IMG/VR virus record: IMGVR_UViG_3300024520_004761
Span: 1 to 39,145 of that record
Source: a virus
Reading direction: 5' to 3' (one strand)
DNA: 39,145 bases
Under the pieces are notes generated by a model, which was not told where the DNA came from, searched no databases, and saw only the letters and a list, made by a program, of their open reading frames with translations. This document shows positions 9,887-11,766 of the stretch, piece by piece; the first letter of the stretch is position 1; each line of letters starts with the position of its first letter. Made by a program: the position numbers and the translations under genes.

Positions 9887-10241
9887 TGGACGGAATAAAG
9901 ACTACTCTATTTCTAATAGATTAAGAAAACAAGGAAAGTCTAGTGAGGAGTTTGAGATTCTATTCAATGCTCTTTCCCTTGAAGAAGTTATTGGTCTAAA
10001 ATTGGAACTGACCGCCAAGTCTTCTTTTAATAAAAAATTATATGGATTACCACTTTGGTATTCTATCCCAAACATTGTAAAAGATGCGGTATTGAAGTAT
10101 GCTTTATCCGCAACACGTTCAAAGCGAGAAGCCGCGAGGTTTCTTGGTCTGAACGAATTATCTATGAAGAAAACTATAAATAGATATAAGATTGACGACT
10201 ATTTTGAACAAACACTTGACAAGGGGGTCAAAGACGTTTAG
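9864..10241 (+). CDS. Phage protein with C-terminal Fis-type helix-turn-helix, 125 aa
   Basis: Residues ~84-110 (ATRSKREAARFLGLNELSMKKTINRYKI) have the A-A-x-x-LG turn pattern of a Fis/NtrC-type DNA-binding helix-turn-helix. The N-terminal part, with NRLRKQGKSSEEFEILF and LSLEEVIGLKLELTAKS, is a signature I associate with a protein shared by many T4-like marine phages. It is probably a phage transcription regulator or DNA-binding protein. The gene overlaps the DUF1599-like gene, and a strong promoter lies across its 3' end. Confidence 0.65.
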   Translation: MANLKRNDGRNKDYSISNRLRKQGKSSEEFEILFNALSLEEVIGLKLELTAKSSFNKKLYGLPLWYSIPNIVKDAVLKYALSATRSKREAARFLGLNELSMKKTINRYKIDDYFEQTLDKGVKDV

Positions 10242-10407: not shown

Positions 10408-10480
10408 GCGAATGTAGCTCAACTGGCAGAGTGTCAGATTTCCAATCTGAAAGTTGCGGGTTCGAACCCCGCCATTCGCT
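10408..10480 (+). tRNA. tRNA-Gly (anticodon UCC)
   Basis: A full 73-base cloverleaf. The acceptor GCGAATG pairs fully with CATTCGC, the D stem is GCTC/GAGT, and the anticodon stem TCAGA/TCTGA holds loop TTTCCAA with anticodon TCC. A 5-base variable loop follows, then T stem GCGGG/CCCGC with loop TTCGAAC. The discriminator is T and no CCA is encoded, so the 3' end depends on CCA-adding enzyme. It reads GGA codons, which are frequent in these AT-rich genes. Confidence 0.95.
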
Positions 10481-10489
10481 TATATGAAT

Positions 10490-11092
10490 ATGAAGCGTCC
10501 TTTAATAAACATACTTACAAGGACACACCGTAAAGAGTATTTTATAAAGTGTGAAGAAAGTGTTTCCTCACAGAGTTATAAAAATTATCGTCATATTTTA
10601 TGTATAGATAATGAGTCATCACTAGGATATATAAATTCCACCGATTACATACAGGTAAAGAGAGAAAAAAAGAAAAATTTTAAACATTTTCCATATAATT
10701 TATATTTTAATGAGATGTATAAAGAAATAGAGAATGGATGGATAATGTTCTTAGATGACGATGATCACTTGCCTACAACTGGTTCCTTAGAAACGCTAGC
10801 GACAAACATAGAAAAAAACAATAACAAAGACACTCTATATATTTGGAAAGTAAAATTCCCTAACCGGGGGAAGGCTATTCCAACACATTCCTTTGGTAAT
10901 AAAATTGTCATGGGAGATATTGCCTCGTGCGGATTTTCTTTTCACTCATCTCACCTCAAAAAAGCTCACTGGGATAATAAGAAGTGTGGCGATTTTCGGG
11001 TGGTTAATCGCTTATACAATTTTATATCAAACACAGTATGGATTGACGATATTCTTGCCTCTCTACAAGATGAACCCCACGGTGGGAAATAA
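10490..11092 (+). CDS. Glycosyltransferase family 2-like protein (GT-A fold), 200 aa
   Basis: Opens KRPLINILTRTHRKEYFIKCEESV, the usual first strand and helix of a GT-A enzyme. The sugar-nucleotide and metal site is FLDDDDHLP (about residue 85). A late WIDDILASL segment may be the acceptor-side acidic motif. No membrane segment. ATG 10484 or 10490 follows the tRNA by only a few bases, with no ribosome binding site, so translation may begin on an mRNA made by tRNA 3' processing. It stands 5 kb before the main glycan block, beside the RNA genes. Confidence 0.7.
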   Translation: MKRPLINILTRTHRKEYFIKCEESVSSQSYKNYRHILCIDNESSLGYINSTDYIQVKREKKKNFKHFPYNLYFNEMYKEIENGWIMFLDDDDHLPTTGSLETLATNIEKNNNKDTLYIWKVKFPNRGKAIPTHSFGNKIVMGDIASCGFSFHSSHLKKAHWDNKKCGDFRVVNRLYNFISNTVWIDDILASLQDEPHGGK

Positions 11093-11220
11093 AAACTTTA
11101 GGACATTATATTATTATGATATACTTATTACTACGGGGGTGAACTGGGTTCGACACGGTGTCGAGATAGATTTGTGCAAGGGTGTATGAGCAAACACTAA
11201 AAGGCTTAAAACAAATAATT

Positions 11221-11256
11221 GCTAACGATAATGTTGCATTAACTTTGGCTGCGTAA
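11221..11256 (+). other. tmRNA tag-peptide reading frame (ANDNVALTLAA)
   Basis: Resume codon GCT at 11221, 13 bases after PK1, then AAC GAT AAT GTT GCA TTA ACT TTG GCT GCG and the stop TAA. The start AND and the end LAA match bacterial trans-translation tags (E. coli ANDENYALAA), whose LAA end is read by ClpXP. The extra Thr-Leu before AA is unusual. Confidence 0.88.
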
Positions 11257-11305
11257 GCATCAAAGCGGGGTTTTTACGGTTTTCCTTGTTACCCAATAAG
11301 CCGTG

Positions 11306-11335
11306 TTGACAACCATCCAATTTCGAGCGTATAAT
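11306..11335 (+). promoter_or_regulatory. Consensus sigma70 promoter inside the tmRNA gene
   Basis: TTGACA (11306-11311), 18-base spacer, TATAAT (11330-11335): both hexamers match consensus. An inverted repeat, ACCATCCA (11312-11319) and TGGATGGT (11343-11350) with an inner TTCG/CGAA, spans the spacer and -10. At the RNA level this is a hairpin of the tmRNA body; at the DNA level it could be an operator. It would drive the embedded gene at 11385. Confidence 0.8.
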
Positions 11336-11384
11336 ACGAATATGGATGGTAAGAAACACACACACACAAAGGAGGACATTTATT

Positions 11385-11594
11385 ATGTCAGAAAATAAAA
11401 ATAAAAATGGTTATGAAATTCGAGAAGGATTGCTTGGGATGGCGCAAGGTATTCTAGGTGATAAATGCAATCGCGACTTTGAGAATGAAATGATCAAACC
11501 CGATGGAGCGCGAAATGCTGTTCCTTCTTATACAACTGAAGAAATAATTGCTGAAGCTGAAAAGCTTTACGCATTTGTTCAGAAGAAAGATTAA
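11385..11594 (+). CDS. Small phage protein embedded in the tmRNA gene, 69 aa
   Basis: ATG 11385 has a near-perfect Shine-Dalgarno, AAAGGAGG (11368-11375), 9 bases upstream and a consensus promoter before it. An (AC)6 run sits in the leader. Residues include NGYEIREGLLGMAQGILGD near the start and TTEEIIAEAEKLYAFVQKKD at the end, with a charged middle (NRDFENEMIKPDGAR). This resembles, from memory, a small protein of unknown role common in T4-like marine phages. Its stop codon is 7 bases before the 3' strand of the tmRNA P2 helix, so the gene fits exactly between the tag region and the 3' half. Soluble, no motif of known function. Confidence 0.75.
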   Translation: MSENKNKNGYEIREGLLGMAQGILGDKCNRDFENEMIKPDGARNAVPSYTTEEIIAEAEKLYAFVQKKD

Positions 11595-11673
11595 GATATA
11601 ACCTTGTATATCGCAAATTTATTTAAGCATTGTGGACTGCGGTTCGATTCCGCACACCTCCAATTCCATTTAA

Positions 11674-11766
11674 ATGGCAGAAGATTTCTTTGAATGGGTC
11701 AAGAAAGAAAAAGGTGCTAAGGGATTTTCGTTGAATAGTGATAGAGCAATGAAGTATAATAAATGA
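11674..11766 (+). CDS. Small ORF, 30 aa, coupled to the next gene
   Basis: MAEDFFEWVKKEKGAKGFSL followed by NSDRAMKYNK. It begins 12 bases after the tmRNA 3' end and its TGA overlaps the ATG of the next gene (ATGA), the coupling seen throughout the window. No ribosome binding site is clear and the family is unknown. The overlap is the main reason to accept it. Confidence 0.4.
   Translation: MAEDFFEWVKKEKGAKGFSLNSDRAMKYNK

Follow-up and report, generated by a model that had tools for sequence, protein, structure and literature searches.

tmRNA is the RNA that rescues stuck ribosomes. In the window, by which we mean the whole stretch of viral DNA analysed here (a virus record of 39,145 bases, which also contains a PhoH-like gene), one match to the Rfam tmRNA model RF00023 was found at 11135-11663, covering model positions 1-374 with 89.6 bits at a gathering score of 47. 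The two halves of this tmRNA stand in the normal, unpermuted order, and a gene of 69 codons lies between the tag with pseudoknot PK2 and the 3' half. The following features were assigned:

11117-11125, plus strand: extended -10 promoter element of the tmRNA, TGATATACT; a consensus match only, most relatives having TGnTATAAT
11135-11305, plus strand: 5' (coding) part of the tmRNA with acceptor 5' strand, D analogue, P2 5' strand, PK1, tag, P5 and PK2; from the RF00023 match and pair counts
11155-11181, plus strand: P2 5' strand, forming 7+13+5 pairs with 11602-11633; from pair counts
11182-11207, plus strand: pseudoknot PK1; 7 of 8 pairs are invariant in 18 sequences
11221-11256, plus strand: tag frame ANDNVALTLAA-stop, read from the sequence; the P5 hairpin encloses the stop codon
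11268-11305, plus strand: pseudoknot PK2, GGGT/ACCC and TACGGTTT/AAGCCGTG; the second stem has 8 pairs
11306-11353, plus strand: private stretch of about 48 nt with TTGACA (11306-11311), TATAAT (11330-11335) and an inverted repeat, ACCATCCA (11312-11319) and TGGATGGT (11343-11350)
11356-11375, plus strand: ACACAC leader (11356-11368) and Shine-Dalgarno AGGAGG (11370-11375), typical of the protein family
11385-11594, plus strand: embedded gene, 69 aa, type A; supported by 57 related loci and dN/dS
11602-11633, plus strand: P2 3' strand, beginning 7 nt after the gene; from pair counts
11638-11662, plus strand: T arm (11638-11654), acceptor 3' strand (11655-11661) and discriminator A; CCA is not encoded

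The original prediction, made from the letters of the window, had proposed a tmRNA in normal order with a protein gene inside, and both the model match and the recurrence of this layout in 19 further contigs bear it out. Both acceptor strands with the G3.U70 pair, the T arm, the long P2, PK1, the tag ANDNVALTLAA and the ORF were all found in the sequence as it had described them, and the gene is complete and ends 7 nt before the P2 3' strand. For the long P2 itself, the proposed scheme of 11 and 5 pairs gave way to the better one of 7+13+5. It had also recommended a scan with the Rfam models and with ARAGORN; the former recognised the tmRNA, the latter missed it, its output being a tRNA-Gly at 10408-10480 only.

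The G3.U70 acceptor pair, which confers alanine identity, is GU in all 18 aligned tmRNAs, and an 11-codon tag ending in LAA and followed by a stop was present at 24 of 24 loci read without alignment. The second stem of PK2 has 8 pairs at 22 of 24 loci, 5 in L071 and 6 in L070. PK3 and PK4 are missing between tag and P2, where either the gene is found or, in the five measured of the six empty relatives, a linker of 12-20 nt. As PK2 and P5 are present, the ORF occupies the site at which the standard tmRNA layout has PK3 and PK4 (PMC3985003).

Gene-carrying and empty relatives

A search with the protein yielded 57 related loci in viral contigs, at eight of which (L001-L007 and L009) the gene lies inside a tmRNA. 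A DNA pattern from the P2-PK1 region matched 23 contigs, with the gene present in 16, absent in six and one contig cut before the site. When the divergent type-B protein was used as query, 11 contigs were obtained, and the gene stands between tmRNA parts in all of them; three of these go beyond the 16, namely the complete L089/L106 (79.4 bits) and L108 and L109, both cut at the 5' end. Besides the window, 19 IMG/VR contigs thus carry the gene inside the tmRNA (8 of type A and 11 of type B), 17 of them complete and two cut at the 5' end, and the search for inserts between tag and 3' half in viral contigs, which the prediction had proposed, was therefore productive. The contigs are partly dependent on each other: L001/L061 and the window are identical at 10,202 of 10,207 positions, and L066, L069 and L074 have one common ORF sequence.

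The 17 complete gene-carrying forms score 79-114 bits with RF00023, and the RNA including the gene measures 463-528 nt. The embedded gene varies in length from 63 to 69 codons, all differences being whole codons, and the spacing from its stop codon to AACCTTG is 5 nt in 17 of 17 cases (window included), as well as in L106, L108 and L109 as read. No second RF00023 match above the cut-off was found in seven gene-carrying and two empty records, the cut L109 giving only a weak one. With RF00023 as the only model, the tmRNA is the sole match above the cut-off in gene-carrying contigs of 111, 72, 57 and 55 kb.

The same tmRNA occurs without the gene in L059, L062, L067, L068, L070 and L073. Five of these are complete (242-252 nt) and L067 stops within the 3' half; the complete ones reach 98-119 bits, so the expectation that the tmRNA should still match the model without its insert is confirmed by natural examples. 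L062 and L068 hardly differ from one another (99.3% over 7.6 kb). They can be aligned to the window over 10.1 and 11.0 kb with mean identities of 86.5% and 90.2%, and to the gene-carrying L078 over 9.5 and 7.8 kb with 87.4% and 91.4%; the alignments flank the tmRNA on both sides, and single blocks range from 74% (111 nt) to 98%. Since close relatives with and without the gene align on both sides of the tmRNA, the gene and its leader represent a presence/absence cassette, and the existence of both forms in such close relatives makes cost and benefit of the gene testable. The type-A protein was not found in five empty contigs of up to 156 kb, which may be fragments, and occurs once per record in five gene-carrying records, the window included.

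Conservation of the RNA structure and of the embedded protein

Pairing was evaluated in an alignment of 18 tmRNAs, 14 with and four without the gene, from which the copies L061, L068, L069 and L074, the cut L067, L081, L108 and L109, and also L089/L106 were omitted. The 60-pair structure drawn on the window gives standard pairs in 95.9% of the cells, compared to 37-49% when it is slid; its derivation from the window gives it an advantage in this comparison. Measured against shuffles, which take no account of relatedness, double-sided changes occur in 9 pairs (4.3 in shuffles) and in 26 cells (8.5 in shuffles), with none of 500 shuffles as high in either case; the number of further pair types (23 versus 20.3, reached by 18 of 500 shuffles) is the weakest of the five measures.

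Compensatory changes affect the pairing across the gene; they were seen in P2, the T stem and the acceptor stem. At the P2 pair 21-509, 10 sequences have UA and 8 have AU, acceptor pair 6 changes from UA to CG in one sequence, and three T-stem pairs change on both sides. Within the main P2 helix, four of 20 pairs change on both sides and 93.2% of the cells are paired, and five further pairs are invariant. The conservation of P2 in relatives, on which the original prediction depended, therefore largely holds, with two pairs often broken (22-508 in 7 and 30-500 in 9 of the 18 sequences). As aligned, P5 is broken in L059 and L073, and the second stem of PK2 is paired in only 87.6% of the cells, partly through gaps. 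MFE folds keep 7 of 7 acceptor pairs in all 14 gene-carrying RNAs and at least 16 P2 pairs in 13 of them; L080 retains 5 of its 24 P2 pairs, and in the window the T stem does not form. The fold of the window RNA has a z-score of -5.54, which is better than 100 of 100 shuffles. An unusual T arm was noticed in three type-B tmRNAs (L060:2770-2797, L106:3235-3260, which equals L089, and L108:355-385), with AGUCGGUG-like letters for the usual UUCGAUU loop and the stem pairs GCGGG/CCCGC or GAGGG/CCCTC.

The embedded gene is under purifying selection: among 11 distinct embedded ORFs from the window and 16 contigs (L106, L108 and L109 left out), dN/dS amounts to 0-0.40 in the 49 computable of 55 pairs, and six are saturated. 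Pfam searches returned no family for the embedded protein, and no PHROG was found for the embedded family at E 0.01 or better. The best E values in PDB profile searches were 0.96 and 0.077, the latter for a designed helical repeat. The AlphaFold model is of moderate quality (pLDDT 75, pTM 0.50) and shows two helices, and Foldseek gave a best E of 3.8. In isolated phages, tblastn found no match for the type-A, type-B and L057 queries at E 1 or for the L103 query at 1e-3, while a PhoH control retrieved 3,625 records. A DNA search with 11050-11750 returned 98 records, and the 20 listed cover at most 7% of the query. An identity as the late-transcription coactivator gp33 was considered, since the gene behind the tmRNA of phage Melnitz is so annotated and matches phrog_254. 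This lead was dropped on two features, the lack of a PHROG for the embedded family at that threshold and the lack of an ACACAC leader before the Melnitz gene.

Transcription and possible fate of the RNA

A 12-of-12 promoter, TTGACA-18-TATAAT, was found at 11306-11335 within the private stretch of the window. This stretch is shared with the near-identical L001/L061 and missing from the remaining 18 contigs, where the gene is therefore probably read from the tmRNA transcript. The view that the embedded gene is autonomous, with its own promoter, is thus not supported. The inverted repeat ACCATCCA/TGGATGGT in the same stretch as this perfect sigma-70 promoter looks operator-like. Before the tmRNA, an extended -10 element (TGn) is located 9-13 nt upstream of G1 in 16 of 17 gene-carrying tmRNAs, L063 being the exception, and a T-rich run (at least 14 T in 22) follows the 3' half in six of 17. 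In L078, a promoter-like site that matches 10 of 12 positions overlaps the start codon with its -10; such promoter scans are weak evidence, since two of three regions had no more promoter-like sites than their shuffles. As for termination, the window and L078 each have a terminator-like call inside the gene, which, if active, would cut a common transcript short, and none in the interval from tag to gene. The distance from the tag stop to the Shine-Dalgarno is 64-113 nt. The simplest reading of these signals is a single transcript, which would run from before G1 to past the acceptor half.

With moderate confidence, we propose that this one transcript would be translated for the protein and that its tmRNA parts would end as a colinear two-piece tmRNA. 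According to this proposal, the phage would make one RNA from just before the tmRNA 5' end through the coding part, the embedded gene and the acceptor part, and the gene would be translated off this common transcript through its own ACACAC/Shine-Dalgarno leader. The messenger stretch would then be cut and decay, leaving two structured parts, which, joined by P2 and the acceptor stem, would form a two-piece tmRNA in normal order, presumably to be charged and to serve in tagging. The occurrence of gene-carrying and empty relatives suggests that one transcript could be both rescue RNA and messenger. Two-piece tmRNAs typically combine an acceptor piece with a coding piece whose only pseudoknots are PK1 and PK2, and E. 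coli tmRNA can do without at least its last three pseudoknots in vitro (both from PMC3985003). As the same parts exist here, a two-piece tmRNA would remain once the messenger has decayed. The tag-to-ATG distance of 115-127 nt in the 16 gene-carrying forms without the promoter stretch would fit this as well, being close to the 114-118 nt at which a tag-like start precedes the ATG in 30 of 80 L103-type loci (see below); the permuted tmRNAs of that branch, too, would have to be cut between PK2 and leader. Furthermore, a ribosome at the stop codon of the gene would overlap P2, which argues for a separation of translation and tmRNA use in time. In the predicted fold of the full-length RNA, the acceptor stem and P2 enclose the gene, so that this structure does not require cutting, and because the coding part of the clade is closer to one-piece than to permuted tmRNAs, a two-piece ancestry is unsupported.

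In a second, tentative explanation, the RNA would stay intact as one molecule of 463-528 nt, with the messenger in place of PK3-PK4, and act as both tmRNA and mRNA. The acceptor stem in 14 of 14 and P2 in 13 of 14 MFE folds, the low z-score of the window RNA and the dispensability of at least the last three pseudoknots in vitro are in line with it. However, judged from its size, a ribosome that terminates only 7 nt upstream of P2 is expected to sit on part of the P2 3' strand, and the long messenger stretch would be a likely target of RNase.

We consider it unlikely that the insertion spoiled the tmRNA and left the halves as relics or as a stable cap or decoy, i.e. as a tRNA-like domain without tagging. 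Such a role has a counterpart in phage DS6A, whose tmRNA comprises only the tRNA-like domain and inhibits tmRNA (PMC11915505 and PMC4131195), and the broken P2 pairs, lost in 7 of 18 sequences at 22-508 and in 9 of 18 at 30-500, would agree with it. But the tag frame with its stop, PK1 and PK2 are kept, P2, T stem and acceptor stem show compensatory changes, and the scores of the 17 complete gene-carrying forms overlap those of the five empty ones. Quite improbable are also two separate transcripts that would pair in trans, the 5' part made from the tmRNA promoter and the gene with the 3' part from an internal one. The perfect promoter of the window would be suitable for this, yet its stretch is missing from 18 of the 19 other contigs, no terminator-like site separates tag and gene in the window or L078, and a transcript from the only promoter-like site there in L078 would begin inside the gene. 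Chance juxtaposition or misassembly can practically be dismissed, since 19 contigs, divergent genes of types A and B, a constant stop-to-P2 spacing and covariation stand against the circumstance that all gene-carrying and empty contigs are IMG/VR virus contigs and that no isolate record matched.

A role of the embedded gene as read-out of ribosome rescue is conceivable, but we regard it as very doubtful. Ribosomes recruited to the tmRNA would complete the tag, terminate and start again 64-113 nt downstream at the strong Shine-Dalgarno, so that the small protein would track stalling (for example, when a host defence cuts mRNA) and act on translation, rescue or the host response.

Origin, wider protein family and known tmRNA forms

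The coding part of the clade matches the compact one-piece tmRNAs L097, L101 and L095 with 112-158 bits, compared to 47-67 bits for three standard tmRNAs and 7-35 bits or no match for permuted ones. Descent from a permuted tmRNA is not supported, because the coding part would then be expected nearest to permuted tmRNAs and is actually nearest to the compact one-piece type. L095, L097 and L101 are phage tmRNAs of 234-237 nt, and the family gene was absent from the stretches examined (only 1.4 kb in the case of L097). A single insertion is not supported either, since the label 'inside tmRNA' needs three changes on a tree of 48 proteins, at least two of them forced by well-supported branches; this tree is based on 71 columns and its bootstrap had not settled. 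Repeated insertion, in-place replacement of the gene and loss may each have occurred.

A search of 934,518 bases for the ACACACA..GGAG leader pattern gave 190 matches. Genes with the family motif account for 189 of them and a distant homologue in L103 for the remaining one, in a set of overlapping loci which were mostly chosen for the gene and in which several matches per gene are possible. The L103 type (88-91 aa) was related to the window type in one profile comparison with a probability of 96.5% and E 7e-10. Its relatives number at least 588, and the analysis covered the best 80. A loose pattern of the tmRNA 5' half was detected up to 700 nt upstream at 38 of these 80 loci and at two of 49 free-standing window-type loci, one of the two (L057) being chance-like. 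Moreover, 30 of the 80 have a tag-like start 114-118 nt upstream of the ATG, other distances being rare; the corresponding distance in the clade is 115-127 nt in the 16 gene-carrying forms without the promoter stretch and 164 nt in the window and L061. The permuted model RF04321 scored above its cut-off in 20 of 20 L103-type loci chosen for such patterns. Among 13 L103-type contigs searched whole, a permuted tmRNA above the cut-off was found in 12, and L138 gave a weaker match; eight of the 13 stand outside the chosen 20, and seven of these eight exceed the cut-off, with the match roughly 0.4-3.3 kb before the gene by coordinates. Hence, the L103-type gene is often found behind a permuted two-piece tmRNA, though often not directly adjacent to it. 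The order of tag, PK2, leader and gene is common to both branches, and only the place of the acceptor half differs.

A standard tmRNA in the fetched stretch was found for only six of 49 free-standing window-type genes; at L048:4554-5204, such a gene starts about 100 nt behind a complete standard tmRNA. With the L127 homologue as query at E 10, seven records of isolated phages were obtained, one of them credible (phage C48C1, E 1e-3), and the C48C1 protein as query matched only its own record. In this phage, which belongs to the Kyanoviridae, the family gene (L196:3965-4213) is annotated as hypothetical, has an ACACAC leader and lies directly behind a tRNA-Tyr gene.

Permuted two-piece tmRNAs (RF04321, RF01850) occur in alpha-, beta- and cyanobacterial lineages and in phages such as Melnitz. 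With these, the locus shares a coding piece with PK1 and PK2 only, the possible two-piece product and a distant branch of the gene family behind such phage tmRNAs, whereas its acceptor half lies downstream of the gene. RF04321 scores 56.8 bits on 11010-11256 and 47-65 bits on many clade members; in the window match, the acceptor-half part contains many non-standard pairs and overlaps an ORF. Upstream of the tmRNA, no acceptor-like T arm other than tRNA T arms was found at 20 loci (up to 900 nt). With the standard one-piece tmRNA (RF00023), the locus has in common the order of parts, the tRNA-like domain, P2, PK1, tag, PK2 and the full-length match, but a translated-looking gene with a leader of its own takes the place of PK3-PK4, resulting in 463-528 nt.

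As far as the accessible text of the survey PMC11915505 goes, 97,179 unique tmRNA sequences fall into three main forms, standard, intron and permuted, and include 79 phage sequences; the authors caution that introns at sites other than the T loop may have been missed. In the intron form described there, a group I intron sits in the T loop and in some cases contains a homing endonuclease gene, so that protein-coding sequence lies inside as well; here, in contrast, the insert is located between PK2 and P2, the T arm is continuous and the protein has no Pfam family. No intron family reached its gathering score in the window. The same text describes one permuted tmRNA whose intervening sequence harbours a tRNA-Ala gene, i.e. 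also a second gene between the parts, but an RNA gene in a permuted tmRNA instead of a protein gene in an unpermuted one. The supposition of the original prediction that no example had been described agrees with our literature searches, in which no tmRNA with a protein gene between its halves was found in full-text literature, mostly without subscription journals. The novelty applies only to this literature and to the accessible parts of PMC11915505, PMC4131195, PMC9004378, PMC3985003 and PMC10117765.

A tmRNA that is colinear and encloses a protein gene would add a fourth gene form to these three and, if true, be a natural case of one RNA as tRNA, tag template and ordinary mRNA. The uncharacterised protein family, found at tmRNAs in more than one phage lineage, may help to explain why phages carry tmRNAs. 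At L142, a small gene for a secreted-looking protein (by eye, around 1740-1930) lies between the permuted tmRNA and the family gene, and the window itself contains, also judged by eye, a long run of glycosyltransferase-, methyltransferase- and NDP-sugar-like ORFs at 16286-38343.
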